This document shows, piece by piece, positions 3,999-28,592 of a stretch of DNA of 64,000 nucleotides. The notes below the pieces were generated by a model, which was given only the letters and a program-made list of their open reading frames with translations, ran no database searches and was not told the origin of the DNA. The stretch covers positions 1 through 64,000 of the forward strand of contig DAIDJG010000474.1 of assembly GCA_027451445.1 (NCBI GenBank), written 5' to 3'. The DNA is from Singulisphaera sp. GTDB taxonomy: Bacteria; Planctomycetota; Planctomycetia; Isosphaerales; Isosphaeraceae. The translations under genes and the position numbers were made by a program. Within the stretch, counting starts at the first letter, position 1; every line of letters begins with the position of its first letter.

Positions 3999-4963
3999 GG
4001 CGTCACCCTTGTTGACCGCGTTCCCGGCGTGGTCTTTGAAACCTCCCTGAGGACGGTCCAACCAAAGACGACAGGAACCTCGCGGTCGCCCACGGTGCAG
4101 ATGCTCTTGACTCCGGAGATTACGCAGCCTGTTCTGCTCCTGCAAGAGAAACGCGGAACCGCTTGGGCAGAAGAACACGGGTCTTCGCACCTCCCCGAGA
4201 CGATTGGGTCGCGCGTTCATGTTGCGGGGCCGGAAATCCAACGCCGGTTCTTCCAGGTCCTCATCGAGAAGGCAGACAAAGAACTCGTCCTCCAACAGCG
4301 ACAAGGCAGGGGCGGCGCTGGCATTCAGCGTGGGGGCAAATGTCCCTTTACGTTCAAGATGATGTTCGACGAGGTGACGGTCCGGCGGTCGCGAATCCTC
4401 TACAAGCAGGACGGCAAGATCGAGACACCATCGGCCGTCGCCTCGAATACCCCTCACCACTTGGCGATTACCCAGCACCTGGATGATGTGGTTTACGATC
4501 AGATGAGCGACCAGTCGATGGAAAACAGCCGTGCTGAGATTTGCCAAGTCGCCTACGACGAGGATCTCTTGGCGCGAAGTAAGATCCTCAAGACCGTCCA
4601 TCAAGAATGCGAACAAGTCGTTGCCGCGCAACGTACGCGGGCTCGGTCCATCCTGATCGACGCCTCCGACGCTCGGTTGGCCCAGCTTGGCCCTGCGGTG
4701 ACCGATCCCGACGATGTGACGGGTTTGGTCAATGACGACCCGCGGTTTGACGAGACGGAGGAGACCCGACCAACATAATGTCACTTTTATGTTCGATGGG
4801 GCAGGGGAGGTGGTGAGTGATCTCGGGGTCATTGTCGCTGGAAGTGACTGTCGTACTTGGCTGCTGAGCCGAGCTCGGATAGGGGCGCTCTCTTCTCGCG
4901 TACCCGTCCGCCAAATCTCCATGGGTTAACGCCACTCTGGCCGATGCCTCCTTCGCCGGATGT
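3999..4963. other. Ambiguous interval upstream of cmr1
   Basis: About 960 bp separate cmr1 from the MBL-fold gene. Two mutually antisense frames with aligned codons are open: plus-strand 4029-4778 (249 codons from GTG) and the minus-strand upstream extension of cmr1 (to 4922). I recognise neither product. In a sampled part, GC content at codon positions 1 and 3 is nearly equal, so composition does not say which strand codes, if either does. This is the place where cas10 and cmr3 would be expected, but nothing resembling an HD, GGDEF/palm or Cmr3 sequence is seen. A near-palindromic dif-like site lies at 4770-4795. Confidence 0.4.
4770..4795 (-). other. Palindromic dif-like site, copy D
   Basis: Read on the minus strand: CGAACATAA, an 8-base spacer, TTATGTTGG. 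The left arm is identical to that of sites A, B and C, while the right arm is its near-perfect inverse (8 of 9) instead of TTATCGGACGT. It lies between the cmr genes and the MBL/NTPase pair, dividing the block into two sub-cassettes. The function is inferred. Confidence 0.35.
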
Positions 4964-5998: not shown

Positions 5999-8067
5999 CC
6001 TACCCATCCATCCCCTCTCAGGTATCGCAATGGGTCGGGGAAGAGCGGCGGAAGATCTTGGTCCTCCCAGTGCTCCGCTCGGTGAACCCGGATAATTAGA
6101 ATCTCCTCGTCGCCATAGACTCCGAGTTCCACAAATCGGCCCGCCTTCAATCTGGCCGCTGATTCGTCCCTCGAACAGCGATCGAAGTCTGCGAAGTTGA
6201 AGGACATACTCAGGAAGTGCGGCTGCCCCGCCTGTTCTGTCGGAGCTTCCGCGACGACCAGATGGACCCCGTCGTCGTCTATCTCCTGGATGCGGCCGAC
6301 GAGCCAACGCCGCAATGTCTTGCCGGTCTCCGTCTGCAGGGCGCACAGGTGAGGGCCTCGCCACCACCGCTCGGGCGGTATCGTCAAGGGGAAGACAGCC
6401 CGTTGACGGGCGGCCTCGACTAGGAAGCAGAGCCTACGCCGGATGGCGCGAAGCCCAGGGTGCTCCTGGAACACCTCCTGGGGGATTCCCCAGAGCACCT
6501 TGTTTGCGAAGTCGATCTGCCCCCGGTGGACGAGTAGGCGCGCTACCCAGAGGTGCAAGCTCTCGTACACTCTCGGGTCGGCGTCCTGATCCGGAAGACC
6601 AAGCGCGTCGGTCGCGGCACTCCAGGCGGCCTGCGCATCCGAGATGCGACCTCGCGTGATGAGGAAGTTGATCCAGCGCGACCGCCACCAGACGTTCAGT
6701 TCGTCCAGCTCGATGGCCCGAAGGTAGTGCTCCTCCACCCGCTGGGCATTTTTCCCGAGGACATCGAGGTTGAACGCCAGGTAGTGGTGCCCGTAATCGT
6801 CCTCCCCATCCCACTCCACCGCGCGCTCGAAGACGGTAACGGCACCCTCGCGATCCTTGACCTCCTGCGACAGTACGCGCCCGAGGGTGTGTAGCTGATC
6901 CACGAAAAAGGCGCGGAACGTGGTGAGCGTTGTCCGGTCCGGCGCCGAGGCGGCATGGTGGAAGGCCTCCATCTCGTCCAGGACCGCCCCGGGTTCGTTT
7001 CGGCTCGCGCGGTTCTGGAAGCGGTCCTTGTAATATCGCGCGAGCCGCTGGTGTGTTCGCCCCCGCTCTTCGTGGGACAACCACTCGCGTATTCGCCCTT
7101 CGGCCCGGAGCACCTCGTGCATCGAGAGGATCGATCCGTCGTCTACGAGCAGCCCGCGCGTGATCAGACACGCGTGCGGTCCGGTTGAGGGCAGTTCGCT
7201 CAGGAGCCCGAGGATTTCTCGGTCGAATGGGGCGCGCGGCAGGGCAAGGCGCGCCCAGGTTTGACAAACCGCGGCCATGTCCATTCGCGCCGTTAGGGCG
7301 TCGGCGAGGAAGCGAGCGGCATCCCTCGCGGTCGCAGCCTCTGGAAGCCAACGAATCACAGAAGGCACGCCGGTCACAAACGCACACGCAACCAGGAGAT
7401 CCAGTTCCAGAACCGATCGGTGCGAGGGCCAATCCCCGAGCGCGGCAAGCAAATCGAACGCGGTGGGAGCAAGATCACCCCAACTCTGAGCGTAGGATTC
7501 GCCGAGGGTCGCAGGCGGTGCACCCAACGCCAGCGGGCGCCGCATGTGCCCTCGTAATTCCGGCGGGAGGAAGCCGGCAACGACGCGACGGCAGGGCGCA
7601 GACTCGACTAGAGCGCGGAACACTTCAAGGGAATGGTCGCGAGCACGAGCCTCCTCCGAAACGTCCGCCGGCCATAAGAGGGGTTCGTCACAGAGCAGGA
7701 CGACATCCATTCGCTGCTCGCTGAGCCACTGTCGGATACCCCGAATCTTCTCACTCCAAGGGCAGCTCGGCGCTGTCAGCGTGTCGAACTGGCCGTTGAT
7801 CCGGCCCCGTATTTTCAGCCCCACGCCGAGCTGCATCAACGCACTCGGGCCGGCGTCAAGCGAGCGGAACGAGGGGGCCACGAGCACGGGCACCAGTGAA
7901 TGTCGGTCGAGGTGTTTTTGAAGGAGAGCGAGCAAGTAGCTCTTTCCGGCGCCGGCTGGGGCTGAGACCTGCCAAAGGCTGTGAGGTGAGGGAGCCGTCG
8001 CAAGAATCTCGTCGGTAAGTACTTGCGCCAGATTCTCCACCTGCGGTAGACGGAGGCGACTCATCAC
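5995..8067 (-). CDS. STAND-like P-loop NTPase with helical repeat region
   Basis: 690-residue protein. Residues ~36-43 carry a Walker A (AlaProAlaGlyAlaGlyLysSer) and ~121-128 a Walker B (AspValValLeuLeuCysAspGlu). Residues ~180-340 look like the winged-helix region of a STAND module (LeuSerMetHisGluValLeuArgAlaGluGlyArgIleArg). Residues ~370-580 form TPR-like helical pairs, followed by a beta-rich C-terminal domain. Such proteins usually sense a ligand through the repeats and switch on a partner; the coupled MBL-fold gene is the obvious effector. The start is GTG with GGAG 6 nt upstream; ATG one codon later is the alternative. At 690 residues it is much shorter than known Avs proteins. Confidence 0.7.
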   Translation of the reverse strand: MMSRLRLPQVENLAQVLTDEILATAPSPHSLWQVSAPAGAGKSYLLALLQKHLDRHSLVPVLVAPSFRSLDAGPSALMQLGVGLKIRGRINGQFDTLTAPSCPWSEKIRGIRQWLSEQRMDVVLLCDEPLLWPADVSEEARARDHSLEVFRALVESAPCRRVVAGFLPPELRGHMRRPLALGAPPATLGESYAQSWGDLAPTAFDLLAALGDWPSHRSVLELDLLVACAFVTGVPSVIRWLPEAATARDAARFLADALTARMDMAAVCQTWARLALPRAPFDREILGLLSELPSTGPHACLITRGLLVDDGSILSMHEVLRAEGRIREWLSHEERGRTHQRLARYYKDRFQNRASRNEPGAVLDEMEAFHHAASAPDRTTLTTFRAFFVDQLHTLGRVLSQEVKDREGAVTVFERAVEWDGEDDYGHHYLAFNLDVLGKNAQRVEEHYLRAIELDELNVWWRSRWINFLITRGRISDAQAAWSAATDALGLPDQDADPRVYESLHLWVARLLVHRGQIDFANKVLWGIPQEVFQEHPGLRAIRRRLCFLVEAARQRAVFPLTIPPERWWRGPHLCALQTETGKTLRRWLVGRIQEIDDDGVHLVVAEAPTEQAGQPHFLSMSFNFADFDRCSRDESAARLKAGRFVELGVYGDEEILIIRVHRAEHWEDQDLPPLFPDPLRYLRGDGWVG

Positions 8068-8371
8068 ACGCTACTCCGTTTCGATGAGGAGGGCACTCGA
8101 GGGGACGGTTGCATGAAGTAGCGCGCTCCCCAGTTGCAACTGCGTACGTCGGTGTTCGTCCGAACAATGAGATTATAGCAGGCACCGGGTTGCCGTGTGA
8201 CCACTGGCCGATCACCTGGGTGGGTGACCGCCATGACGGTTCCTAGTTAAGCCGGTAGCCTGCACGCGTTGTGTGCTGGACCGAAGCCATTTTCCCCTTC
8301 GACTCTCGACCGTCGCGGTGGGATCACGGATGTGGAAAGTCCATACAATCGGCAAACGTGGCAGACTCAAT

Positions 8372-8400
8372 CGAACATAATGACATCCTTATCGGACGTT
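8372..8400 (+). other. Xer/dif-like recombination site, copy B
   Basis: CGAACATAA, an 8-base spacer, TTATCGGACGTT: both arms are identical to copy A at 117-144 and in the same orientation. The two copies bracket the Cmr/MBL/NTPase block (about 8.25 kb), so excision or acquisition by a site-specific recombinase is a possible origin. Confidence 0.45.
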
Positions 8401-8464
8401 CTGGCCAACGGCTTTTCAGTGACAAGGTAAACTGAAGGTACCGTCCGTGAGGCAAAGGACATTT

Positions 8465-8563
8465 CTGAGCGTTGCAGAAATAACTGAAGCGGACTCTCTG
8501 CAGACCGCCTTGTTTCAGACCTCAGCGAAGGCAACCGACTTAAGCTATTTCTGCAACGCTCAG
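8465..8563. repeat. MITE-like inverted-repeat element
   Basis: An 18-bp perfect terminal inverted repeat, CTGAGCGTTGCAGAAATA at 8465-8482 and its complement at 8546-8563, encloses about 63 bp with no coding capacity. Imperfect pairing continues inward for about 12 bp. The form suits a non-autonomous miniature transposable element; I see no clear target duplication and no parent element in the window. A structured RNA or terminator is the alternative. Confidence 0.55.
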
Positions 8564-8814
8564 TAGCTTATCAGCCTCCATTCCTGGCCTCTCCCCATAT
8601 AACACGGTCCGTCAGCCCGCCTCCATTTTGTGGGCTCGCGGGGAGCCACTCGGTCCACCTTTTTTTGCGGATCGCTTGGTGGACCTCCGGAGGCGCCGTT
8701 GGACATCGCTCTTACCAGTATCCGTCCCTTGGGGTTGCGGTCGTATTCACCGCGATCGTACCGGCACGGCCCAATTCTTCACGCAAATTAGTTAGTTCAG
8801 TTAAATATCATCAA

Positions 8815-9359
8815 TTAGTTGTCGGCGCCGACACTGGACGATTCCAGAGGAACCGAGTCGACCAAAGGTTCAATGATCGAGAGAGCAACAAAAATGGCGG
8901 CAACAATGGTCAGGTCGAGAATTTCGCAGTCGGACAGTCCCGCCTCTCCAATTCGCCTGAGGTCATCATCAGTAATCGTGTAAGCCGCGTTCGCCACTCG
9001 TCAGGCGTACTGAAGGCAAAGTGAGTCGACATCGGCGTCGGTGCCGCCGAAATGCAAGCGGGAAGACAGTTCGTCACAATCGCCCAGCGACGACGTGGCG
9101 AGCCAGGCGTTGACCATCGTGAAGAGAGAAAGGCTCCGTGCCGCGCGTCGCCGTAGCAATAGCCGCGGCCTGGATCCAAAGGTTGCGACCGATTTCAGCG
9201 GCATCCGCATTCACGCCGAGAAGCATCGCAGTTCCCTCAAGCATGGCCGGCAACCGGCGGAGTTTGTGGAAAAACGCCGGAACGCAATCACCACCGCGCT
9301 CGCGCACGAGATGCTCGAGCCTGCCGAGTACTTCGTCGTGCGAATAATATTTTATGTGA
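8815..9359 (-). pseudogene. Decayed CMD/AhpD-like gene, distal copy
   Basis: Fragments of a carboxymuconolactone-decarboxylase/alkylhydroperoxidase-like protein lie in two frames. One (9074-9359) contains ValProAlaPhePheHisLysLeu and IleGlnAlaAlaAlaIleAlaThrAla. The other, after a frameshift near 9074-9120, gives the C-terminal half with ThrIleThrAspAspAspLeu...GlyLeuSerAspCysGluIleLeuAspLeu, the usual C-terminal helix pair of the family. An in-frame TGA also interrupts the second part at 9001-9003. No start codon is evident. It is almost certainly non-functional as read. Confidence 0.6.
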
Positions 9360-10058
9360 CTATTTAAGTGTATATGCCAAACCAGTAGCGAACGAAAAGA
9401 CTCGTTCGACCCATCCGCGAATCGGTCGGAGATTCCGAAGCCATTCGAATTCCAGTCGAACCCGTCGAGCATCGGCGATCCTGTTGATCGCGTTAAACGT
9501 GAACACAACGCCGGCTGTCTCGAGCAGAAGCACCGAGTTCGCGAGGTTTGCCGCGGCGGCTTTGATGCCAGCGACCGCTGTCGGAGCGGATAGGTCGGAT
9601 AGCGTCGCATAGACCGCGAGCGCGAGACAACGCCGCTCGATAGGGTCCCAGTCGACCGCGGAAAACGCCTGTTCCAGGGCGCCCAGGTCGAGACTTGGAT
9701 GAACCAGCACGCCTCTCTGTCAGTGCGCGCCGGTCTCACGAAGGGCGCCGGCGATGGAGTCGACCAACCGATATGCCACACTCTGTTTCGCTCCTGCAGC
9801 CTGCAGGAAGAGCATGTGCTCACGAGTTCAGTAGCGACATCGAATAGCGGTGGAAACAGCTACGTCGATGGCTTCACGCAGGCGCCGACGCGCGGGATCG
9901 CCCCACATGAGCAGCAGCCATGATTGCTTGAAAGCTGGGAGGTAAGCGGGTCGACATCCGAACGTCGCCGCAATGCTCGGGGAGGTCCAGATGTAACGAT
10001 CCGAATAGCGCTTAATCGCCTGGGTCAAAATTGATCTGATCTGCTTTTCAGTCTTCAT
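9360..10058 (-). pseudogene. CMD/AhpD-like gene with two in-frame TGA codons
   Basis: From ATG 10058 (AAGGA 6 nt upstream) one continuous frame runs to TAG at 9360, broken only by TGA at 9828-9830 (codon 77) and 9720-9722 (codon 113). The product matches the CMD/AhpD peroxidase-like family: ValAlaValSerThrAlaIleArgCysArgTyr, then the position of the second CxxC cysteine, ThrArgGluHis, and later PheAsnAlaIleAsnArgIleAlaAsp. The first TGA sits exactly where the redox cysteine belongs. A hairpin with apical loop AGGCT begins about 26 nt downstream, so selenocysteine is conceivable. The second TGA and the broken neighbour favour decay. Confidence 0.5.
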
Positions 10059-10381
10059 GTTACGTCCTTCGTTCTGCAATAGATGGCACAGTGAAACGAT
10101 TGCGTCTGAATTCATGCTCAGAGTGGTCTGACCCCACTCATCCTGAACTGGTCGTGCGCGGCTGCGAGAAGTTTTCAAAAATTCCTCTTGCTTTCGAGAA
10201 GCCGGCTCGTCAGAGTTGCCAGCTTTGACGAGATTGGTTCCGCGTTCAGCGCTGGGATTCATCGTACGGCTTTGGCTTACATAACATTTCTCTATATGTA
10301 AGCCGCGGCATGGCAGCCCTGGAGCACGTCGGTTCTCTACCGTTCTCTATCGAGTCCGGCTTCCTTCTCCATAGGTGTCAC

Positions 10382-11056
10382 ATGCCTCCCCAAATACGAC
10401 TCGCGATTTTTCATGGGAATCCACTGTTTCGAGAGTGTTTGACGTGGGCGCTGCGGGCCTACAAAGAATACGACGTTGCCATGACCAACGATGGTTGGCA
10501 AGGGGAGTTGGCCTCTGCCGCGGGAGAGCGCCCCGACGTTGTACTCGTGGACGCGGGTCTATCGAATTCGGCGGCGTTCGCTATGGTGCAGAAGCTCGGC
10601 GCGTCGAATGACAGACCGCGCACCATTCTGATGATTTCCACGGCAACGCCGGATCTGATCGAATCCTGCCTGAAGGCGGGTGCAGATGGTTGTGTGCTCG
10701 ATGATGATACGCTCATGGACCTTTGCCAGGCGATCGAGTCCGTGGGATCGGGGAGGAGCTACTGCTCTCCGAACCTGGCCAGCCGGCTGTTTGCTCGATC
10801 AACCGCCGCTGCGCCGCCGACACGGGCTTCGGTGGATCCCCGGGAATATCGTCTGACGCGCCGTGAGATCGAAATCCTCCGGCTGATCGCTGAGCGGGAT
10901 CTGAGCAACAAACAGATCGCGCGGGAATTGCGTCTGTCCATTTACACGGTGAAGAACCACATCCACAGCATCATCGAAAAGCTCGCTGTGGAGGACCGCC
11001 AGTCGGCCGTCCGTCACGCAGTCCGACAGGGGATCCTGGCGGACCCCGTCTCGTGA
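10382..11056 (+). CDS. NarL/LuxR-type response regulator with atypical receiver
   Basis: A DNA-binding regulator of about 224 residues. The N-terminal receiver-like domain keeps ProLeuPheArgGluCysLeu after strand 1 and an Asp in ValValLeuValAsp. It has HisGly in place of the acidic pair, and Asp where the conserved Lys after strand 5 belongs, so phosphorylation by the usual chemistry is doubtful. The C-terminal LuxR helix-turn-helix is complete (LeuThrArgArgGluIleGluIleLeu, ...SerAsnLysGlnIleAlaArgGlu, ...ThrValLysAsnHisIle). An ATG at 10310 would add 24 residues. It sits just upstream of the biosynthetic run and may control it. Confidence 0.75.
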   Translation: MPPQIRLAIFHGNPLFRECLTWALRAYKEYDVAMTNDGWQGELASAAGERPDVVLVDAGLSNSAAFAMVQKLGASNDRPRTILMISTATPDLIESCLKAGADGCVLDDDTLMDLCQAIESVGSGRSYCSPNLASRLFARSTAAAPPTRASVDPREYRLTRREIEILRLIAERDLSNKQIARELRLSIYTVKNHIHSIIEKLAVEDRQSAVRHAVRQGILADPVS

Positions 11057-14525: not shown

Positions 14526-16106
14526 ATGTTGAACCAGAAGCCGAGGATCCCGTCCCGTGGAATGCTTTTTGTTGGTCTCGGTGCAGTCTGCGGCGCGGTG
14601 TTTGTCGCATCCGGACAGGAGGTACGCGATCAAAAGCATCGCACCGTGCTCACCGCGAGCCGGCGCGTCTCGTCAGAGAGTACGGGGGGCCTAGACTACC
14701 TGAAGCAAAGCCCGGGCGCCGTGGCGTCAGGCACACTACCCTCGGACTACGGCCTGGGGACGTCACACGTCTCGAAGCTCGAGCCTTATCCGCAGCCCTG
14801 CACTGAAGGGATGAGGACCCCGTTCGACCTGTGGCGCTACGCTGGCAAGGGGCGTTCGTCGTGGGGCTCACCTCAGCTTCGCATGCCGTTTAGCGAATGG
14901 ATCGAACTGCATCGGGAGCAGAAGCCGAAACTGATGGCCGACGTTCGCGCTTACATGGCATCGCGCTACGACTTCTCGGGCAAGACGATCGAGGGTGCCC
15001 TGATGTCGGGCGGGCGCAAGGCCGTCCCGGCGGGACCCATTGCGCGACTTCCGAGGGACGTCCGCTCCTATGAAGCACTCGCCGAGTTTTCTCCGGACGA
15101 TATCAAGGACCGCGACCTGTTCCCGTACAAGCCGCTCGCGCACCCACTTCAGAGCACGGCTCACATGCTGTTCCCCTCGATGTGGGTCGAAGCCCATCCC
15201 GAACATGCCCGGATCGACGTCGACTTCGACATTCCGGATTCTTATCTACCAGAATTCCCGCCTCCGCTCTTCCTGACGATCCACAAAGAACTGGGCGACA
15301 TCACGCAAGGTCAGGAGATCACGCTTGGCAACTACTACGAAATGTTCGACGGACTGCTCACCGCCGAGCAAATGGAGGGTCTCAAGGAACTGCTGCGGCC
15401 CAGCCCAACCACATGGTTCAACCACACCGAACATCGTGTCACGGCCGACGCCAGTGCGGGCGTGAGCTGCATGTCGTGCCACGTCAACGGCCACACCAAC
15501 GGCGCGATTGAGCTGACCCCCGATTCGCGCCCGAACGAGGCACGCCTGCGCGTTGATACGCCGACAATGCGGGGCAACTTCAACCTCATGCAACTCTCGC
15601 TGAAGCGGTCGGTCCGCAGCCTCGACCACTTCTGTGAGGTGGAGGAGTACTTCGACGGCGACCCAGGCCTGATGCAGGCCATTGGGCCCCGCGGCGCGCA
15701 GCGGCAGATCACCAACCGCATGGGGGACTTTTGCGCCCTCATCGACAATCCCCCCGCGCCCAAACTCAGCCCGCTCATGAAGCTCATTCCGGCCAAAGCC
15801 AGCGTGCAAGAGCTACGCGGCGAAACGCTCTTCCACGGTAAAGCAAAATGCGCGACGTGCCACTACGGGCCGGCGTTTGCCGATGATTATATGCACGATC
15901 TTCAGGTCGAGCGCTTCTATAAAGGCCGGCCCGAAGGGCCGGTCAAGACGTTTGGCCTACGCGGCATCAAGGATTCGCCCCCGTATCTCCACGACGGCCG
16001 TTGCCCGACGCTGCACGACTCAGTCGAGTTCTTCAACGTCGTGCTCGAGTTGAAGCTGACCCAGCAAGAGAAGGAAGACCTGGTCGCTTTCCTCCTCTGC
16101 CTCTAA
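14526..16106 (+). CDS. Di-haem cytochrome c peroxidase/MauG-like protein
   Basis: 526 residues with an N-terminal hydrophobic export segment (MetLeuPheValGlyLeuGlyAlaValCys...) and two haem c motifs, CysMetSerCysHis (~residue 315) and CysAlaThrCysHis (~residue 442). The AspThrProThrMetArgGly and IleLysAspSerProProTyrLeuHisAspGly segments are typical of the MauG/cytochrome c peroxidase superfamily. The ~200-residue N-terminal part has no recognised domain. Periplasmic redox chemistry on the pathway product, or electron transfer, is the likely role. It follows the CLF-like gene by 22 bp in the same run. Confidence 0.78.
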   Translation: MLNQKPRIPSRGMLFVGLGAVCGAVFVASGQEVRDQKHRTVLTASRRVSSESTGGLDYLKQSPGAVASGTLPSDYGLGTSHVSKLEPYPQPCTEGMRTPFDLWRYAGKGRSSWGSPQLRMPFSEWIELHREQKPKLMADVRAYMASRYDFSGKTIEGALMSGGRKAVPAGPIARLPRDVRSYEALAEFSPDDIKDRDLFPYKPLAHPLQSTAHMLFPSMWVEAHPEHARIDVDFDIPDSYLPEFPPPLFLTIHKELGDITQGQEITLGNYYEMFDGLLTAEQMEGLKELLRPSPTTWFNHTEHRVTADASAGVSCMSCHVNGHTNGAIELTPDSRPNEARLRVDTPTMRGNFNLMQLSLKRSVRSLDHFCEVEEYFDGDPGLMQAIGPRGAQRQITNRMGDFCALIDNPPAPKLSPLMKLIPAKASVQELRGETLFHGKAKCATCHYGPAFADDYMHDLQVERFYKGRPEGPVKTFGLRGIKDSPPYLHDGRCPTLHDSVEFFNVVLELKLTQQEKEDLVAFLLCL

Positions 16107-16151: not shown

Positions 16152-17402
16152 ATGAGCCAACGGACCGGTCACACTGTCGGATCCGTATCTCCGACACTGG
16201 ACCTAGTACCGCGTCTGGGCAGCCCTGGCGATGTCGCACAACGACGCAAGTGGGTGGCCGAGCGAACCGACACGGCGCTGGGGCACGTCGGCCACCACTC
16301 GCTCGACACCGAGTCCGTGCGAGGCAACATCGAAAACCTGATCGGAGCGGCACAAACGCCGCTTGGAATCGCCGGACCGCTCCTTGTCAAAGGTGAATCC
16401 TCGGAACGCGTCCACTACGTTCCACTGGCAACTACGGAGGGCGCTCTGGTCCGCTCCTTTGAGCGCGGAATGGTTGTCCTGACTCGCTCCGGTGGTGTCA
16501 CATCCCGAGTCATCATCGACGAAAACAGCATCACGCCGGTCTTTGGCTTCGACGGGATTGTGGCGGCCAGCTCGTTCGTCCAGACACTGCCGGATCTCTT
16601 TGATGATGTCCGGATGGTCGCAGAAGCCACGACCCGGCACGGAAAGCTCGTCCGGCTGGAACCACGGCTGATCGGCCGCGACGTTTATGTGCGCTTCGTC
16701 TACCACACGGCCGACGCGCATGGCATGAATATGATCATGCGAGCTACTGACGCAGCCTGTCGCTGGCTTATGACCCGGGCGGCAGCGAGGCGGTACTACG
16801 TCATTACCGGCGCGTGCTCCGAGAAGCGCTCGGGCGGGACCGCGCTCGCCGGGGGCAAGGGGAAAACCGTCGTCGCTGAGGCGATCGTGCCGGCCTTCCT
16901 GCTCAAGCAGTACCTCCGTGTGACGCCCATCATGATGCTCGACATGTGGCATCGCACCATGCTCGGTCAAGCGGCGGCGAACGTGGCGGGATACAACGGA
17001 CACCTGGCCAACGGCCTTACCGCTCTGTTTATCGCTTGTGGCCAGGACGTTGCCAACGTTGCCAACGCGGCCACTGGTCTCACGGCCTTCGACCTGACCG
17101 TCGGGGGAGACCTCTATATCAACGTGACCCTTCCCTCCCTGACTGTCGGGACCGTCGGCGGCGGGACTCACCTCGCGACCAGCCACGAATGCCTCGGAAT
17201 GCTCGGTTGCGCCGGTACGGGAGGGGCGCGGAGGTTCGCCGAGATCGCGGCCGCTACCGTCCTTGCCGGCGAGTTGTCGATGGGCGCGGCGATCGCCAGC
17301 GGCGAAATGGCCGCGGCCCATGAGGCTTACGGTCGCAATCGTCCTGAAGAGCGAAACCCAGTTCATCGCGCGGCGGCGGCGGAAGTCGAGGTGCGCGTAT
17401 GA
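16152..17402 (+). CDS. Hydroxymethylglutaryl-CoA reductase
   Basis: 416-residue HMG-CoA reductase, the enzyme that makes mevalonate. Recognisable motifs in order: GluAsnLeuIleGlyAlaAlaGlnThrProLeuGlyIleAlaGlyPro, the ThrThrGluGlyAlaLeuValArgSerPheGluArgGly substrate loop with its catalytic Glu, AspAlaHisGlyMetAsnMetIle, the lysine/glycine-rich GlyGlyLysGlyLysThrValValAlaGlu, GlyGlnAspValAlaAsnVal, and GlyThrValGlyGlyGlyThr. There is no membrane anchor, so it should be soluble. Mevalonate supply inside a locus with carotenoid-type enzymes points to an isoprenoid moiety in the product. The end overlaps the next GTG/ATG by 4 bp. Confidence 0.85.
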   Translation: MSQRTGHTVGSVSPTLDLVPRLGSPGDVAQRRKWVAERTDTALGHVGHHSLDTESVRGNIENLIGAAQTPLGIAGPLLVKGESSERVHYVPLATTEGALVRSFERGMVVLTRSGGVTSRVIIDENSITPVFGFDGIVAASSFVQTLPDLFDDVRMVAEATTRHGKLVRLEPRLIGRDVYVRFVYHTADAHGMNMIMRATDAACRWLMTRAAARRYYVITGACSEKRSGGTALAGGKGKTVVAEAIVPAFLLKQYLRVTPIMMLDMWHRTMLGQAAANVAGYNGHLANGLTALFIACGQDVANVANAATGLTAFDLTVGGDLYINVTLPSLTVGTVGGGTHLATSHECLGMLGCAGTGGARRFAEIAAATVLAGELSMGAAIASGEMAAAHEAYGRNRPEERNPVHRAAAAEVEVRV

Positions 17403-18979
17403 ACCGGGCATTCCGCACGTTAGCCTCCGCCCGCGGGCTTGCCGACGACTACGACGCCGTCGTCATTGGCGCGGGGATTGGCGGCCTGATTTGCGGCAAT
17501 CTGCTCGCCAAGGCCGGTCTGCGCGTTTTGCTGATCGAGCATCATTCGGTCGTGGGTGGCTACTGCTCCACGTTCACGCGCCGCGGCTACACGTTTGATG
17601 CCGCCAGCCATTTCTACCCCCTCCTCGGCAATGCCACGTCGATCACGGGACGCCTGCTCGCCGAACTCGGCGTCGAGACCGAGTGGATCAAGATGGACCC
17701 GGTCGACCAGTTCCATCTGCCGGACGGTTCGACCTTCGCCGTGCCTGCCGGCGAAGCGGCTTACCTCCAGCAACTCAAGCTGCAGTTTCCCGGAGAAGCG
17801 GAGGCGATCGACGGGTTCTTCCGACAGGTCCGGCGGCTCTATTTCCTCGGGATACTCGAATACTTCGAGGATTTCGCGACGGGCCGCATCGACGCGGAGT
17901 CAGGGCTCACGGTAAGGGATGCGCTCAACCAGTGGTTTACCTCGCCGCGCCTCAAACTGCTCCTCACGGCCGACTGTCCCCACTGGGGTGCGCCTCCCGG
18001 ACGCACTTCATTTATATTTGATTCTATGCTCAGACTCTCGTATTTCCTGGGCAACTACTATCCCCAAGGAGGTTCGCAACGATTCGCCGACGCGCTGGCG
18101 AGGCGCTTCGAGGAGCTTGGTGGACATATCCTTCTCAAATCGAAGGTGGTGCGGATCGAGACCCGCAACGGCCGGGTCAAGGGCGTTCAAATTGAGACCG
18201 GCGCGCTCCGCGAACGCACGCAACGCTCCATCAAGGCTGCGGTCGTTGTGTCGAACGCGGACCTCAGACAGACCGTGCTCAAACTGCTTTCGGCTGACGA
18301 GGTGGACGGATCGTATCGCGAGAAACTCGCGGCGATGCGCTCGACCTATCCGTGCTTCCTGATCCACCTCGGTGTCGAAAACGTGCCAACCGAGCGACTC
18401 GAGCAGATTCACGGCTACCACTGGCGCGACTGGGACGCCGAGCGAGTGGGCAGCGACGCGTTTCGCTTCAAGCTTTTCGTGCCCAGCCTTTACGAGCCGG
18501 CGCTCGCACCACCCGGGGGGCATGTCTTGATTGTGCAAAAAGTCACGGAGATCGACTTCGATTCCGTGGACGATTGGAGTAGCCACAAGCTTGCCCTCGA
18601 GACCGAGGTGATGAACTACTTGCGGCAACTCTTGCCGCCAACGGCACGGATCCACGTTCAACTCAGCGCTTCGGCGATGACATCGTATCGCTTCACGCTC
18701 AACGACCGCGGGGCGATGCTCGGCTGGGAGATGTCGCCGGACCAGCTCGGCCCGAATCGGCCCGACATTCGGGGGCCCGTTGAAGGGCTGTATCTCGTCG
18801 GTCAGTGGACTCGTCCCGGCGGTGGTATTACGCCGGTCATCGTCTCCGCGATGCGGGTCGCCGGCCTCATCACTGGCGTCTCCTCGTCTTCTCGGCGGGT
18901 CGGCGTCAGACCCGTACTTGCCGGACGTCGATCGTTGGACCTGAGCGCCTCCACGGTTCAAAAGGAGGTCTGCTCGTGA
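17399..18979 (+). CDS. FAD-dependent phytoene desaturase/carotenoid isomerase-like protein
   Basis: 526 residues. The N-terminal dinucleotide-binding motif ValValIleGlyAlaGlyIleGlyGlyLeu (~residues 20-30) is followed by a Glu-ending second strand and GlyGlyTyrCysSerThrPheThrArgArgGly, the pattern of CrtI/CrtISO-type flavoproteins. The C-terminal GlyLeuTyrLeuValGlyGlnTrpThrArgProGlyGlyGlyIle is the family's FAD-proximal signature. It probably desaturates, saturates or isomerises a polyene or isoprenoid. ATG at 17399 overlaps the HMG-CoA reductase stop by 4 bp, and its own stop overlaps the next start by 4 bp. Confidence 0.8.
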   Translation: MNRAFRTLASARGLADDYDAVVIGAGIGGLICGNLLAKAGLRVLLIEHHSVVGGYCSTFTRRGYTFDAASHFYPLLGNATSITGRLLAELGVETEWIKMDPVDQFHLPDGSTFAVPAGEAAYLQQLKLQFPGEAEAIDGFFRQVRRLYFLGILEYFEDFATGRIDAESGLTVRDALNQWFTSPRLKLLLTADCPHWGAPPGRTSFIFDSMLRLSYFLGNYYPQGGSQRFADALARRFEELGGHILLKSKVVRIETRNGRVKGVQIETGALRERTQRSIKAAVVVSNADLRQTVLKLLSADEVDGSYREKLAAMRSTYPCFLIHLGVENVPTERLEQIHGYHWRDWDAERVGSDAFRFKLFVPSLYEPALAPPGGHVLIVQKVTEIDFDSVDDWSSHKLALETEVMNYLRQLLPPTARIHVQLSASAMTSYRFTLNDRGAMLGWEMSPDQLGPNRPDIRGPVEGLYLVGQWTRPGGGITPVIVSAMRVAGLITGVSSSSRRVGVRPVLAGRRSLDLSASTVQKEVCS

Positions 18980-21450
18980 AACGGTGGAAGACGTGGATCC
19001 GTGGTGCGGCCGTGGTCGCTCTCATGTTGGCGGTCGTTGCTGGCATCGGCACCATCTACGCCGGTCGCTTCATGAGGCGGCTCGACACTGAGCACGCGCG
19101 GTTCCTCGAATGCGGCCAGAGCATCAACCTGTTCCTCAAACACTACGGTCAGGAGCTGGTTCGCGCGCAACAGAGTGGCGACCTTGGTCCGGTGCTCGCC
19201 GCCTACGTTGAGGATTACCGCTCGCCCGGGCGTGGACACTGGAAACTCGGCCCGGAAGTTGATCTCGGCTCGGCCGCTCTCAGTCGGTTCGAAGCGAACG
19301 GTCGAGACGACTACCGGTGCGCGGAGCTCTCGGTCGAGTTCGCCGAGTACCTCGCCGGTCTGAGCGACGTGAAGAGCGTCAAATGCAAGATCAACTTGAT
19401 CGAAGATGTGGTGCCCGATGAGTCGGCCGTCATCACGGTGAAGTACATCCTCGATGGTCGCGACCATCACGGCCGTCTGCTTGAAGACCGGTTCTTCTTT
19501 CGTTGGCGGCTGCGCAAGGCCACACTTCCGAGCGGCCTCAGAGACTGGCGGATCGTAGGCGACGAGCTCGTCGGTGGCGAGCGCGTCGCCGGATTCGCCA
19601 ACGGCTTCCTTAGCCCGACTCCGTCCACGGTCGGCGTCGATTATGTCCACCGCCGCGACCCCAAACTCGATCCATCAACACATGCGCTCAAGTTCGCGGT
19701 TATCCAGCACTCTTCAGGTGGGATAAGTGCAGTCGACTTTGACGATGACACGCTCGTGGACCTCTTTTTTTCGGACGGCCTGCAGAGCCGGCTCTACAAG
19801 AACGTCACGAATCTTGGCGCGTCCTCCGCGCTTCCCGCGTTCCGCGACGTGACCACGGAAGCCGGCCTCGACGGGATTGACCAGGCCCAGTGTGCTTTGT
19901 TCGTGGATATCGACAACGACGGAGATCGAGACCTTTATGTCGTCCGGTACCTCGCGCCCGGCCGGCTCTTCATCAACCGGGGCGACGGCACGTTCACCGA
20001 CGCAAGTCGCGGTTCTGGACTCGACTTCGTGATTCCGGCCACAGCGGCAACCTTCTTCGACTACGACGGCGACGGTCGCCCCGACCTGTACGTCGGCAGC
20101 AACGGGAACGCGTTCAAGGCGTCGCCCAACATCCCGTTCTACGCGACCAATGGGGAGCCCAACCGGCTGTACCGCAATGTCGACGGTCGGCGGTTTGAGG
20201 ACGTGACCGCGGCATCAGGGACCGGCGACACGGGCTGGACCCTCGCGGTGACGGCCAGCGACTTTGACGGCGATGGCCACGTCGACCTGGGAGTCGCCAA
20301 CGACTTCGGCCGCAAGATCCTCTACCGGAACAACGGCAACGGCACCTTCACTGACGTCACCAAGGCCGCCGGCGTCCTCGACTTCAGTGGTGGTATGGGC
20401 CTGGCCTTCGGTGATATGAACTTCGACGGCCGCCCCGACCTGTACACCAGCAACATCAACAGCAATCAGCGCTGGTTTGGAGAGGAGGTTACGCTCTGGC
20501 AGTACGGTCGCAACCTCTGGAGAAGCGGCTGGCTCTCCCACGACTTCGCCGAGATGCGCGACCTCTACAACCTGCTCGGGGACGACTGGCGCAAGTTGGG
20601 AAAGATGATCGGCGAGGGCAACTCGCTCTTTTTCAACCAGGGCGACGGCACGTTCCGCGAGATCCAGGATAGCGGCACAGACCGCGCAGGTTGGTCCTGG
20701 GGCGTCGCGCTGCTTGATATGGATAACGATACCGATCTCGATATTGTCGTCTCTAACGGTTGGATTAGTGGAAAGAATCAGGACGATCTCTGACTACCGT
20801 TTATCAATGGTGCGGTCGCACACATCAGTAAATATAAACATGGATTTTTCTTTAGCCCCCAGTTTATCGGCGACAATTCCTGGAATGGGTATGAAAACAA
20901 GCTTCTTTACGAATGCATCGGCGACGGACGGTTCACGGATGTTGCGCGCGCGATGGGCTGTGACGCACTCAAAGACGGAAGGGGGGTGGCCGTGGCAGAC
21001 CTGAACGGCGATGGGCTCCTTGACCTTGTGATCGGCAACAACAACGCGAGCCCGACGATTTACATCAACAGCCAAACCGAGTGCGGGAACTGGCTCGATA
21101 TCGATCTCGGGCCAGCCACGCCCAAAGGCGGTCGCGATCCCCTCGGTGCGCGGGTCGACGTCGTTGTCCGCCTTGGATCGGGAACCCGGACGGTGAGCCG
21201 TTGGGTGGAGGCGGGAGCGGGCTATGCCTCGCAGTCCGACTATACGCTGCACTTCGGACTCGGAGAGGCTCGGGTCGTCGAGTCGGTGCGCGTGACCTGG
21301 CCGGGTCTGCCGACTCGTACGTACTCGGGTGTTGAGATCAACCCGTTCTTCAACAAGACGGTCAGTCTGCGAGGGGCCAGCACGCCCGTTTCGAGGCGCA
21401 GGCCCCCGGTGACCGCGTTGTCCGAGCGTCCGAAAGCGAGGGGGCAATGA
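18976..21450 (+). CDS. FG-GAP/ASPIC-UnbV protein with in-frame TGA, candidate selenoprotein 1
   Basis: Read through TGA at 20791-20793 (codon 606), the gene encodes 824 residues. GTG 18976 overlaps the previous stop by 4 bp and has AGGAGG 7 nt upstream. Order: membrane anchor/signal segment (~8-28), an alpha/beta region, then FG-GAP-type repeats with calcium-loop motifs (AspIleAspAsnAspGlyAsp, AspTyrAspGlyAspGlyArg, AspPheAspGlyAspGlyHis). The TGA follows AspAspLeu; after it come LeuProPhe, AlaValAlaHisIle, SerTrpAsnGlyTyrGlu, another repeat, and an ASPIC/UnbV domain with GlyTyrAlaSerGln and HisPheGlyLeuGly. The frame has no other stop up to 21450, where it overlaps the next start. Conventional annotation would end it at 20793 and call a separate 3' fragment. 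Function unknown; extracytoplasmic. Confidence 0.7.
20794..20825 (+). promoter_or_regulatory. Candidate bacterial SECIS hairpin 1
   Basis: Immediately after the in-frame TGA, arms 20807-20813 (ATGGTGC) and 20818-20825 (GCACACAT, one bulged A) enclose the loop GGTC at 20814-20817. The loop starts 21 nt after the TGA and contains GGU, as in the E. coli fdhF element, within the spacing known for bacterial SECIS elements. The UGA-CUA context could instead favour plain readthrough. Pairing was worked out by eye. Confidence 0.55.
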
Positions 21451-23990
21451 ACCACCCGATTGCAGTGCCAGCACCCGGTAAAGGAAAAACCGATGGCCAG
21501 CAACTACGGTCTCGCCCAGGGCGCCGGCTCCGTCGCGCGGCACTCGCTCTCCTCCTCGTCTTCATGGCGGCCGGAGTCGGCGCAAAGCTCTATCTCGATC
21601 GGGTCGAAGGACGCGCTCAGCGGCTCGCGTCGACGGGAACATCGCTGAATACATTCTTCAAAGATTATGTGGATGGACTCAAATCACGAGACGTCGGGAC
21701 CGTTGTCAAGCTGCACGACGCGCGGTACGTGGATGAGCGCGATGGTTCCTGGGACGAGACCTTTGTTTCCAGTCGCGATGGAGTCGATGTCTACGCGTGG
21801 ACGTCGTCAAGCGCCGCGCCAATGACGCCGGTCGGGCTTCGCGCTCAGACCGAGAGCCAGATGAGCCGGTTTGCCACGATCGAATCGGGAAAGATTCGGA
21901 TCGCATCCATCGAATCGCTGAACGCTGACGGCTCAGCCGTGATTCGGGCCGTCCTTTGGCTCCGTGGGTCAACGCCCGAACGCAGGACCAGGGAAAGCTG
22001 GACCACCCTGCGGTTCCGGCTCCGGCCCCTCGGCTCGAGCTGGACGATTATGGGCAAGGAACTGATCTCGGGGCAGACGGTCATCGGCGCGGGGGAAGGG
22101 TTCGTCGACGTGACAAAGCAAGCCGGGATCGACTTCGAGGCAGGGCACAACCCGATGCTGCTCGAGCCCGAATGGTTTCCGAAGAAGTTCGGCATCATGA
22201 AATACGCCACGGCCGGCGTCGCCGCGGCCGATTACGATAACGACGGTTTATGTGATATCTTTTTTGCCGATGGCGCACACCCGTGTCTCTATCGCAACAA
22301 GGGGGATGGAACTTTCGAGGACGTGACGACCATGGTCGGCCTTCCCGCTGACTTGAAGGCCGTCCACGTCGCTCTTCTCGTGGATCTGGACAACGACGGG
22401 AATCGCGAGCTGTTTTTGGGCAGAAGCACGGGCCCGAACTACCTCTTTCGGAACGAAGGCCGCGACTCACAGGGGCGCCATCGGGGATTCACGGATGTGA
22501 GCGCGACGGCCAATATCGGCGGCGTCTGGGTGGCGACGGCCGCGGCGGCCGACTACGACAACGATGGTAAGGTCGACCTGTACCTCGGCCGCTATCTCGA
22601 CCCGCGCAAGAACCTGCCGACGACCAACTTCTACACGCGAAACGGTGAGGGTAACTCGCTCCTTCATAACGAGGGACAACTCCAATTCCGCGACGTGACC
22701 GAGAGCGCAGGCGTCCGCGAAGGCGGGCTGACCCTGGGGATTTCTTTCGCCGATTACGACCGGGACGGTGACCAGGACATTTACGTCGCCAACGACTTCG
22801 GTCGGAACGCCTTGTTCCGGAACAACGGCAACGGGACGTTCACTGACGTCTCTCGCCAGGCCGGCACGACCAACCTGGGCTATGGCATGAGTGCGTCGTT
22901 CGCCGACATCGATAACGATGGAGATCTCGACGTCTATGTCGCCAGCGTGCACAGCGGGCAGCGTTGGTTCGGAAACGGCGTCACGCTGCAGCGCTATTTC
23001 GTAACGAGTCTCCAGGAAGGAACGATCGTCGACGACTACCCGCTCTACCGCGAGCTCCTCGGCCTGACAGGCTGGGACTGGCAAACCCTCGGCGAGCGCG
23101 TGATTCGGGGCAATTCTCTGTTTCTGAACAACGGCGACGGCACGTTCACGGACGTCACCGAAAAGTGCAAGGCAAACCCACACGGGTGGTACTGGAGCTC
23201 GCAAATAGCCGACCTCGACAACGACGGACTACAGGACATCTACGCAGTCAATGGTTGGATCACTGGAAAAACCGAAGATGATCTCTGACTGCCCTTCGTA
23301 AGGAGCGCAGTTGCGCACATTCGCACATATAAATCAGGACAATACTACCAGGATTCATTTCGTGGAGAACGGAGTTGGAACGGTTATGAGCGCAAGGTGC
23401 TTCTCCGGAATGAAGGGCTCGACGCGGAGGGCGTGCCTCGGTTTGCGAATGTGGCCGCCGCGGTTGGCGCCGATAGCATCGCCGACGGTCGGGGCATGGC
23501 CTTCGCCGACTTCGACAACGACGGAGACCTCGACATCGTGATGAACACGAACCCTGGCGACTGCGGCAAGCCCAGCAGTCCGCCCGTGCTCTACCGCAAT
23601 GACCTCGGCCAGCGGCGCCATTGGTTGTCAATCGAACTCGTTGGCACGCGGAGCAACCGTGCCGCTCTAGGGGCTGAGGTGCGCATCGAAACAACGCCAG
23701 AACATGGCAAGCCCCGTCGGGCGATGCGGCATGTCAGCGCCGGGGGCGGCTACGCGTCTCAGAACGATCACCGGCTCTACTTTGGGCTGGGTGATCAGTC
23801 TTCGCCCGTGACGGTCACGATCCACTGGCCGTCAGGCGGTGAGCAGACGTTTGAAAGCGTGATGCCAGACCGTTGGTTGCGGATCACGGAAGGCGGGCCG
23901 ATCGAGAGCTACGATCCTGCTGGTCCAAACTCCGGGCGCCACATCTTGACCTCGACGGTCGATTCGGGGCTGGGAGGACGTCCGCAATGA
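21447..23990 (+). CDS. FG-GAP/ASPIC-UnbV protein with in-frame TGA, candidate selenoprotein 2
   Basis: Paralog of the preceding gene, 847 residues if TGA at 23286-23288 (codon 614) is read through. ATG 21447 overlaps the preceding stop by 4 bp. It has a hydrophobic anchor at ~31-48 (AlaLeuAlaLeuLeuLeuValPhe), then repeats with AspTyrAspAsnAspGlyLeu, AspLeuAspAsnAspGlyAsn, AspTyrAspArgAspGlyAsp and AspIleAspAsnAspGlyAsp. AspAspLeu precedes the TGA, with LeuProPheVal, AlaValAlaHisIle, SerTrpAsnGlyTyrGlu, a further repeat and a GlyTyrAlaSerGln/TyrPheGlyLeuGly ASPIC domain after it. The frame runs unbroken to 23990, overlapping the next gene by 4 bp. The two paralogs differ widely elsewhere, so the shared TGA is not a recent copy. 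Confidence 0.7.
23289..23320 (+). promoter_or_regulatory. Candidate bacterial SECIS hairpin 2
   Basis: After the in-frame TGA, GCGC at 23305-23308 pairs with GCGC at 23313-23316 around the loop AGTT (23309-23312), starting 21 nt after the TGA: the same offset as in the paralog. A U-A pair of hairpin 1 is replaced by C-G here through synonymous third-position changes, one compensatory pair. The extension of the stem below the 4 bp core is weak. Confidence 0.5.
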
Positions 23991-25768
23991 GCAACGGCCC
24001 GACGTTCCGGAGAATCCTGGTGTATGAGCCGAGGCGGCCGCTGGCCGACCTGATCACGTCTCGGCTCAATGCGCTGAGTGGCGTTGAGGCGATGAACGGT
24101 GCCTCGGGCGATTTCGCTTCGCTGAGCGCGGCGATCGAGGAATATCGACCGTCCATCTTCGTGTTCTCGCCGCTGTCAGAACGGGCGACGGACTTTGTAC
24201 CCGACCTGACGGGCGTCGCGAGCATCTTCGATGCGTGCACCCGTTCGAGCGTGCGCAGGGTGGTACTCCTCTCCAGCGCATTCGCATATGGTGCCGACTA
24301 CCACAACCCGGGGATGCTCCTCGAGTCGCGGCCGCCTTCAGCAAGGCGACCGAACGCGGTCGCGTCGGCGTGGCGTGCCCTGGAATGCCTCGCCCGCGAG
24401 TCGATCGAGCAGGCCGGCACGCTGCAGCTTACGGTCCTTCGTCCTGCAATGACGGTAGTACCTGGAGCCACGGACTGGGTGAACCGATTACTCAGTCGCA
24501 GTTGGGCGCTGACCTTGAGCGGGTACGACCCGTCCGTCCAGTTTGTCCATGCCTCCGACCTCGCCGAGGCAGTCGTCTGCGCGGTGGAAAGCGGCAGGAC
24601 AGGGACGTACAACGTTGCGCCGGACACGGTCGTTCCGCTACGTAAGGGGCTTCGTGCGGCCGGTGTGCGCTGTGCGTCGCTTCCTTGCAGCGTACAGCGA
24701 TTGGCTCGCTGGTCGTTGCGTCGATGGCTGCCGGTTGCGTCATCATCCCAGCAGGAGTTTCTTCGTTATTCCTGGACCGTGGACAACGGTGGGAGTGTGC
24801 AGGAGCTTGGAGTTCGCTACCGAATCACATCAGCGTCAGCCGCTGCCTCCGCAAGGTCGGCCAAAAGGCGAATCGCCGCTGAGTTGGCCGCACCCATGGG
24901 GGAAGATGACGCGTTCGGGATGGATGCCCACTTCATCCACGTACGCAGCCGCCCGCTGATCGACTTCTTTCGGCGCCGCTACTGGCGACTTGAAGTGCGA
25001 GGACTCGAGCGCATACCGCGCACCGGAGCCGCTGTTCTCGCGGGTCTCCACCGTGGCTTCATGCCGTTCGACGGTGTGATGATGGTCCATCTCCTCGCCA
25101 CCCAAGCGGGTCGCATTCCGCGTTTCCTCATCCACCCAGCGCTCGTGAAATTCCCCTTCCTGGCCCCGTTTCTCACTAAGCTCGGCGGCGTGGTCGCTTC
25201 GCAGGAGAACGCCGATCGCGTGCTCGTAGAAGGCGAGTTGCTCGGGATCTTTCCGGAGGGCATTCGAGGCGCGTTCCGGCTGTACAAAGAGGCTTACCGA
25301 ATCGAACGGTTTAGCCGTATGGATTTCGTGAAGATGGCATTGCGCCACCAAATACCGATTATTCCATTTGTCTTCCTCGGGACCGCTGAAACCTTCCCGA
25401 TTTTGGCAAAAGTCGAAATGTCCTGGTGGAAGCGCTACACCGAATGGCCGTTCTTCCCGATCACGCCGACGTTCCCGTTGCTCCCCGTGCCATTGCCATC
25501 GAAGTGGCATTTATTAATTTTGCCACCTATTAATGTGACCGCGGAGTATTCAGCCACGGCTGCCGACGACCCTGAGATTGTCCGGCGGATCGGCAATAAT
25601 GTGCACGATCACATGCAAAGAACAATCGATGCGATGCGCAGCAAGCGGCGCTCCATGTTTTTCGGTTCGATCTTCGATAGGACGGATTTCAGTGGATCGC
25701 CGTCCCAACCCGCTCTCGGCATTGTTCGGGCGGCCACATCCGAGCACCTGGAACCGACGGTTTCGTAA
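23987..25768 (+). CDS. NAD-dependent epimerase-like and PlsC-like acyltransferase fusion
   Basis: 593 residues starting at ATG 23987 (4 bp overlap with the preceding gene). Residues ~1-290 resemble an extended SDR/epimerase: ArgArgValValLeuLeuSerSerAlaPheAlaTyrGly, then AlaTrpArgAlaLeuGluCysLeu where the catalytic Tyr-x3-Lys would lie, and ValLeuArgProAlaMet. The catalytic Tyr is not evident. Residues ~340-560 carry a glycerol-phosphate-acyltransferase-type domain: HisArgGlyPheMetProPheAsp in place of Asn-His-x4-Asp, and GlyIlePheProGluGlyIleArgGly. It probably moves an acyl chain from the local ACP or from CoA to an acceptor. Two-domain proteins of this layout occur in several bacterial lipid loci. 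Confidence 0.72.
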   Translation: MSNGPTFRRILVYEPRRPLADLITSRLNALSGVEAMNGASGDFASLSAAIEEYRPSIFVFSPLSERATDFVPDLTGVASIFDACTRSSVRRVVLLSSAFAYGADYHNPGMLLESRPPSARRPNAVASAWRALECLARESIEQAGTLQLTVLRPAMTVVPGATDWVNRLLSRSWALTLSGYDPSVQFVHASDLAEAVVCAVESGRTGTYNVAPDTVVPLRKGLRAAGVRCASLPCSVQRLARWSLRRWLPVASSSQQEFLRYSWTVDNGGSVQELGVRYRITSASAAASARSAKRRIAAELAAPMGEDDAFGMDAHFIHVRSRPLIDFFRRRYWRLEVRGLERIPRTGAAVLAGLHRGFMPFDGVMMVHLLATQAGRIPRFLIHPALVKFPFLAPFLTKLGGVVASQENADRVLVEGELLGIFPEGIRGAFRLYKEAYRIERFSRMDFVKMALRHQIPIIPFVFLGTAETFPILAKVEMSWWKRYTEWPFFPITPTFPLLPVPLPSKWHLLILPPINVTAEYSATAADDPEIVRRIGNNVHDHMQRTIDAMRSKRRSMFFGSIFDRTDFSGSPSQPALGIVRAATSEHLEPTVS

Positions 25769-27977: not shown

Positions 27978-28592
27978 ATGAAACGAATCTGCATCACGCT
28001 GCTTGCTTGTTCGACGTCCGCGCTCGTCGCCGGCTGTGGAGGAAGCGAACCCGGCTCAATCGAGATCGGAGACCTAGTCCCGGCCTTCAGCCTGCCGGCG
28101 GTCAGCGGCACCACGAAGAAGGTTACAAGGGACGATTTGAAGGGCAAGATCGCAATCGTCAATTTCTGGTCGACCAGTTGTAGCGTTTGCCTCAAGGAGT
28201 CTGAAGATCTGACTGAAATTCACCGGGATGGCCGGGCATTCGTGCTCGGGATTGCGCTGGACGAGGACGCCGAAAACCTGAGCCGCTTCGTAAAAGAACG
28301 CGGCATCAAGTATCCCGTAGCCCTTGGCAACGAAAAGATATTTATGCGGTTCGATGGCGCTGCCATTCCCTACACGCTCGTACTTGACCGTGCCGGCGCA
28401 GTGCGGAAGAAGGTGTACGGCAGAATTGAAGCCGGGGAACTCGCCCGTGTGATCGACGAGATTGATCGGTCCGCCGCCAGTCTCGATGTGCCCCAAACGA
28501 TCGGTGAAAGAACGGTTCTCGCAGGCCCGGCGACTCCGATCGGCAGCGCGTCAAACCAGGCCGCAATTTCCGGCGCCGCGAACCACCCATGA
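27978..28592 (+). CDS. TlpA/ResA-like thioredoxin-fold lipoprotein
   Basis: 204 residues. Signal peptide with lipobox LeuValAlaGlyCys (acylated Cys ~20), then a TlpA-type domain: ValProAlaPheSerLeuPro, ValAsnPheTrpSerThrSerCysSerValCys (redox CxxC at about residues 74-77), and a cis-Pro in AlaIleProTyrThr. It is a membrane-tethered disulfide reductase. A reductant of cytochrome c, or of a Cys/selenocysteine centre in the neighbouring exported FG-GAP proteins, would be a sensible role, but this is inference. It overlaps the next gene by 4 bp. Confidence 0.82.
   Translation: MKRICITLLACSTSALVAGCGGSEPGSIEIGDLVPAFSLPAVSGTTKKVTRDDLKGKIAIVNFWSTSCSVCLKESEDLTEIHRDGRAFVLGIALDEDAENLSRFVKERGIKYPVALGNEKIFMRFDGAAIPYTLVLDRAGAVRKKVYGRIEAGELARVIDEIDRSAASLDVPQTIGERTVLAGPATPIGSASNQAAISGAANHP

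Follow-up and report, generated by a model that had tools for sequence, protein, structure and literature searches.

The 64,000-nucleotide stretch of a Singulisphaera sp. assembly analysed here (GCA_027451445.1, contig DAIDJG010000474.1, positions 1 to 64,000 of the forward strand; the window) carries two neighbouring genes, W1 and W2, each of which contains an in-frame UGA codon (Table 1). When read through this codon both genes encode an FG-GAP propeller with a UnbV_ASPIC domain at its end, downstream of the UGA (for W1, Pfam FG-GAP_3 1.3e-42 and UnbV_ASPIC 2.4e-15). A preliminary description of the locus had placed the TGA of W2 directly between DDL and LPF, had the frame continue into the ASPIC domain up to a 4-bp overlap with the next gene, and assigned the first paralog a TGA at the homologous position. 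All of this is borne out: the flanking residues read DDL-TGA-LPFVRSAVAHI...SWNGYE in W2 and DDL-TGA-LPFINGAVAHI...SWNGYE in W1, the two TGAs occupy one column of the pairwise alignment, and open reading frame (ORF) and Pfam analysis agree that W2 remains open into the ASPIC domain and on to the TGA at 23988-23990, sharing 4 bp with a gene whose ATG lies at 23987. The paralogs are also as divergent elsewhere as had been supposed, with identities of 220/584 (38%) before the TGA and 82/216 (38%) after it. Selenocysteine (Sec) was not named in that description, and Sec as the mechanism is a result of the present follow-up. Judging from sequence comparison, it is very likely that W1 and W2 encode selenoproteins whose in-frame UGA is decoded as Sec, which together with the redox relay proposed below is the joint best explanation of the data.

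Table 1. Features of the selenoprotein locus and its neighbours, in window coordinates
Feature	Position	Strand	Description
HMG-CoA reductase-like gene	16152..17402	+	Pfam PF00368 3.3e-103; syntenic in L327, L331
FAD amine-oxidase/desaturase-like gene	17399..18979	+	Pfam Amino_oxidase; directly upstream of W1
W1, predicted selenoprotein gene 1	18976..21450	+	Read-through ORF; 824 aa with one Sec (U606)
UGA codon of W1	20791..20793	+	Same alignment column as the UGA of W2 and 128 other homologs
bSECIS-like hairpin of W1	20810..20821	+	GUGC-GGUC-GCAC; apical loop 20 nt past UGA
W2, predicted selenoprotein gene 2	21447..23990	+	N-terminal transmembrane helix, FG-GAP propeller and UnbV_ASPIC; 847 aa with one Sec (U614)
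UGA codon of W2	23286..23288	+	Ends ORF 21447..23288
bSECIS-like hairpin of W2	23305..23316	+	GCGC-AGUU-GCGC; apical loop 20 nt past UGA
Epimerase + acyltransferase gene	23987..25768	+	Pfam; 4 bp overlap with W2; syntenic
TlpA-like thioredoxin lipoprotein (WSTSCSVC)	27978..28592	+	Pfam AhpC-TSA/Redoxin; candidate redox partner

W1 and W2 belong to a large family. When 392 genomes from the window's phylum were searched with a profile built from three UGA-containing sequences, 81 of them gave matches at E <= 1e-80, mostly with a single TGA within the open frame, and the family profile matched 50/297 genomes of Acidobacteria. Only about three to four candidates were scored per genome, and the family amounts to more than 100 genes in the genomes sampled. 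The homologous codon, read in the individual loci, is UGA in 130 rows (128 distinct ones after two duplicates were dropped) and forms a single alignment column, so that an in-frame UGA flanked by homologous sequence on either side is conserved across species in 130 genes including W1 and W2. Its carriers span Planctomycetota, Acidobacteriota and one metagenome-assembled genome (MAG) labelled Verrucomicrobia (L048), which has four such genes; a UGA-containing homolog of W1 with 54% identity is found at L331. The earlier contention that the TGA shared by the paralogs is no chance mutation is upheld by the 128 further homologs with a TGA at the same codon. The main family motif is NGF[IV]T...D[LT]-U-SFFWRQVVSQSP and that of the window type DDL-U-LPF...AVAHI, residue conservation beginning at the codon directly after the UGA. 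In 65 non-UGA homologs a sense codon occupies the site and the frame continues straight through; the residue is Glu in 18, Ala in 8, Pro in 7, Ile in 5, Asn, Gln and Leu in 4 each, Gly and Ser in 3 each, and others in the remainder.

Relatives with Glu at the Sec site include acidobacterial ones and one labelled Zixibacteria (L043, L044, L045, L046, L047, L075). At several of these loci two to three FG-GAP/ASPIC paralogs stand in tandem, and SelB scores above its curated cut-off in 5/6 of the genomes. A further member (L224, genome G020) has three TGAs in the matched frame, in which only 20 codons separate the Sec-site UGA from the following stop, and the extra TGAs could reflect a second Sec, a frameshift or a pseudogene.

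The two sides of the UGA are under equally strong selection. The ratio of nonsynonymous to synonymous substitution rates (dN/dS) between W1 and W2, which the preliminary description had put forward as a test, was dropped as uninformative because the pair is saturated at 38% protein identity, and closer homolog pairs were therefore taken. Ratios from distant pairs, near or above 1 with dS saturated or biased by high GC, were likewise discarded. Pooled over 15 close homolog pairs, dN/dS is 0.100 before the UGA and 0.126 after it (maximum 0.31 after), so purifying selection persists beyond the codon and the value near 1 expected of relaxed selection is not seen.

According to the bacterial Sec insertion sequence (bSECIS) model, a stem of 4-16 bp carries an apical loop of 3-9 nt with a G in its first two positions, at a spacing of 16-37 nt from the UGA (PMC13188914). 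The predicted hairpins of W1 and W2 agree with this geometry, with 4 bp stems, 4 nt loops (GGUC and AGUU) and a 20 nt spacing. With the U of the UGA numbered 0, the commoner xxxWR subtype has the core pairs 15-29, 16-28, 17-27, 18-26 and 19-25, and all five are present in 90% of 104 unique UGA sequences, as against 5% (maximum 12.5%) in synonymous-codon shuffles of the same genes and 1/30 (3%) of non-UGA homologs with the same protein context. The Ser codon that closes the hairpin is UCG in 50/51 cases compared with 27% elsewhere in the same genes (72 unique UGA sequences, first set). In 38 thinned sequences 97.4% of cells are paired and 26 cells have changed on both sides; the covariation score of 0.422 (0.157 when shuffled, 0/500 reaching the observed value) is lost when the partner is slid by 1-3 columns. 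The hairpin of the window subtype is shifted in position relative to xxxWR, and all its core pairs occur in 68% of 19 sequences versus 17% (maximum 42%) in shuffles and 0/11 Glu homologs. On these comparisons the predicted SECIS-like hairpin is conserved beyond coding constraint. Rfam at gathering thresholds gave no match inside the window. Plain single-sequence minimum free energy (MFE) folding was rejected as a detector: it misses SECIS, local MFE being about that of codon shuffles, and the position-specific test separates them.

SelB and tRNA-Sec would decode the UGA as Sec, directed by the bSECIS hairpin in the codons right after it. The window assembly (10.9 Mb, 622 contigs) contains a tRNA-Sec with anticodon UCA (71.7 bits). 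Contig C494, which bears it, also encodes selB (359 bits, exceeding the curated cut-off), adjoined by selD and selA, which were identified by reading translated ORFs; tRNA-Sec, SelA, SelB and SelD are thus all found in the genome. ARAGORN detected no tRNA gene inside the 64-kb window. Among the 392 genomes of the phylum sample, SelB (E <= 1e-60) is present in 69/74 UGA-bearing genomes versus 167/318 others (Fisher p = 3e-12), and the 5/74 UGA genomes that lack a strong SelB match all have a tRNA-Sec of 67-74 bits. The L048 genome has a tRNA-Sec of 62 bits and only weak SelB-like matches, and may for this reason be incomplete or mis-binned. Taken with dN/dS, the UGA in 128 further genes and the SECIS-like hairpin, this machinery supports the original proposal that the position is under selection and translated through. 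At locus L009, selD (6190-7365, minus strand) is divergent from selB-selA (7648-11003, plus strand) with tRNA-Sec about 2 kb off (3987-4081), and the SelD there appears from its translation to be of the Cys type (NCAGCAGK), not Sec.

The AlphaFold2 model of W2 (predicted local distance difference test 83.9, predicted template modelling score 0.83) has the CRTAC1 fold (PDB 9etn) as its best Foldseek match (E 1.5e-29, TM-score 0.74 on target length). The protein would be a membrane-anchored FG-GAP beta-propeller of the CRTAC1/ASPIC type, probably facing the periplasm. Sec614 is placed by the model at the first residue (N-cap) of a helix in a propeller insertion, and this helix N-terminal position would favour a reactive selenolate. 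Most UGA members continue into a C-terminal TlpA-like thioredoxin (Trx) domain with a WCxxC motif, often with TPR-like repeats behind it. Among proteins with a Trx domain 99/102 UGA members but only 1/17 non-UGA homologs retain an intact CxxC (Fisher p 6e-16, kinship ignored), an example of the degraded form being NFWATTAPLC in a non-UGA homolog where NLWASWCAPC is expected. On a tree, 7 changes of Sec are counted. Just 3 independent contrasts cover both traits, and each of them is concordant.

This association suggests a Sec-CxxC redox relay, in which Sec would be the redox-active residue of an oxidoreductase reaction and would exchange electrons with a TlpA-like CxxC thioredoxin, the latter being supplied as a C-terminal fusion in most family members and from the same operon in the window type. 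The window type has no fused Trx domain, and the product of the TlpA-like lipoprotein gene in the window matches the family's fused Trx profile (E 1.1e-7). At the acidobacterial loci L326 and L327 the product of the next gene (epimerase + acyltransferase) carries a TlpA-like domain as a fusion, and no such domain was seen in the Glu-type locus stretches examined. The relay would probably operate outside the cytoplasm because of the N-terminal transmembrane helix and the lipoprotein nature of the partner. As a whole, the family, found in Planctomycetota and Acidobacteriota, probably combines Sec in a beta-propeller, as opposed to a thioredoxin or another known Sec fold, and without Cys counterparts, with a TlpA-like CxxC module to form a two-centre redox enzyme.

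Several observations weigh against this interpretation. Cys is found at the Sec position in 0/65 non-UGA homologs, which is unusual for selenoproteins, and a pattern for the Cys version of the motif retrieved from the 392 genomes only two unrelated short ORFs, both chance matches. The link between Sec and CxxC derives from few evolutionary events (sign test p 0.25). Considered individually, the hairpins of W1 and W2 do not outperform codon shuffles of their own sequences (p 0.36 and 0.11), and the hairpin evidence therefore stands at the level of the family. The 60-nt regions of the two genes fold at -10.2 and -14.9 kcal/mol, the MFE structure of the isolated W2 strand being not the homologous hairpin but a different pairing nearer the UGA; the bare upper stems reach -3.6 and -5.1, with a family mean of -8.95 and a review criterion of <= -7.5 kcal/mol. 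Lastly, only MAG binning connects the window contig with the sel contig.

A different role for Sec, as a metal or metalloid ligand and not an electron-transfer nucleophile, is unlikely. Many homologs do have Glu, Asp, Gln or Asn instead, and DxDxDG-type Ca-binding repeats abound in the propeller, but Ala, Gly and Met replacements occur too and Sec is lost together with the CxxC of the TlpA-like domain. Sec insertion is always in competition with termination. Recoding of 30-40% has been measured (PMC4513850), and homologs tolerate non-redox residues at the site, so that the UGA might act as a selenium-sensing switch with a short product without selenium and a long one with it, the switch and not the redox chemistry being selected; this is improbable, as both halves are equally constrained and the loss of Sec accompanies that of the Trx CxxC, which is expected of a chemical role. 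It is still less probable that the UGA is read as another amino acid, through a code change to Trp or Gly or through leaky near-cognate read-through. The chemistry of the site is admittedly not fixed, with homologs carrying Glu, Ala, Gln, Asn, Gly or Ser and never Cys, but Trp never occurs there, the SECIS-like hairpin is confined to UGA members and the UGA co-occurs with selB/tRNA-Sec. A general code change is excluded because UGA is still an ordinary stop in neighbouring genes, TGA ending 6/9 other cluster genes checked as well as both W1 and W2. That the in-frame UGA is itself a genuine stop, like the terminal UGA of W1, W2 and most neighbours, and yields a 605-613 aa propeller followed by a decaying or separately translated remnant is scarcely credible in view of the equal purifying selection after it, the conserved residues from the next codon on, the non-UGA homologs that have a sense codon and read on, and the ASPIC and often Trx/TPR domains downstream.

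W1 and W2 lie in a conserved biosynthetic cluster (window 12081-40796, plus strand) that is partly syntenic with the Acidobacteriota loci L326, L327 and L331. Besides the selenoproteins it comprises two ketosynthases, HMG-CoA reductase-like, FAD amine-oxidase-like and epimerase/acyltransferase genes, ABC1 kinases, the TlpA-like gene, Trp-halogenase-like and RPE65-like carotenoid oxygenase genes and a Na/H exchanger. The FAD amine-oxidase/desaturase-like gene has syntenic counterparts in L327 and L331 with 54-60% identity. Within the window's taxonomic order only one other searched genome (G990, same genus) has a family member, a distant one, and transfer from Acidobacteriota or a foreign contig binned in is therefore possible. 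The GC content (window 58-67%, sel contig 65-67%) does not decide this question, and the family-level evidence is independent of the contig's origin. At L265/L303, of the same genus as the window genome, a divergent UGA member (PDG-U-NCVWQAVVSQ) lies close to a gene that shares 55% identity with window 14526-16106 (526 aa, without a Pfam match).

The large selenoprotein family proposed here is apparently undescribed. Among the 119 prokaryotic selenoprotein families of a 2026 review none is of the FG-GAP/ASPIC type or has DL-U-SFFWRQVV or DDL-U-LPF (PMC13188914), and no NCBIfam selenoprotein model matches the family. No paper in the open literature joins 'selenocysteine' and 'FG-GAP' or 'selenoprotein' and 'UnbV', an earlier mention elsewhere being conceivable, and the main text of the deep-Sep paper contains no FG-GAP, UnbV, CRTAC1 or planctomycetes. 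If decoding of the UGA as Sec is correct, two phyla that abound in soil and water would gain a large selenoprotein family and Sec would be placed on a new scaffold. The assumption of many selenoprotein searches that Sec aligns to Cys would be broken; the family would escape Cys/Sec-pair screens because it is without Cys counterparts, and other such families may be hidden. Standard gene callers would probably split these genes in two. That Sec and the thioredoxin CxxC are lost together yields a hypothesis about the enzyme which can be tested directly.

The closest known proteins are the CRTAC1/ASPIC-UnbV propellers (PF13517 and PF07593; PDB 9etn), with which the family shares both domains, in the order FG-GAP propeller then UnbV_ASPIC, and the fold (profile match E 1.8e-29). 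The literature found describes neither Sec nor a SECIS for CRTAC1, whereas the new branch has a UGA-bearing insertion and often a TlpA-like and TPR C-terminus. The TlpA/ResA-type thioredoxins share the WCxxC of the C-terminal or operon partner domain, but the Sec of the new family sits in the propeller and not in the thioredoxin motif. Known bSECIS selenoproteins include formate dehydrogenase, peroxiredoxin, thioredoxin, TlpA-like 'UGC' proteins and others (Table 1 of PMC13188914). Known bacterial selenoproteins have in common with W1 and W2 the in-frame UGA, a hairpin with a loop G 16-37 nt away and the dependence on SelA/B/C/D, and differ in that Cys homologs are their usual, though not defining, support whereas none were found for the new family. 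In kind, then, this is a known thing, a bSECIS-directed bacterial selenoprotein; what is new is the scaffold, the missing Cys counterparts and the coupling to a thioredoxin.

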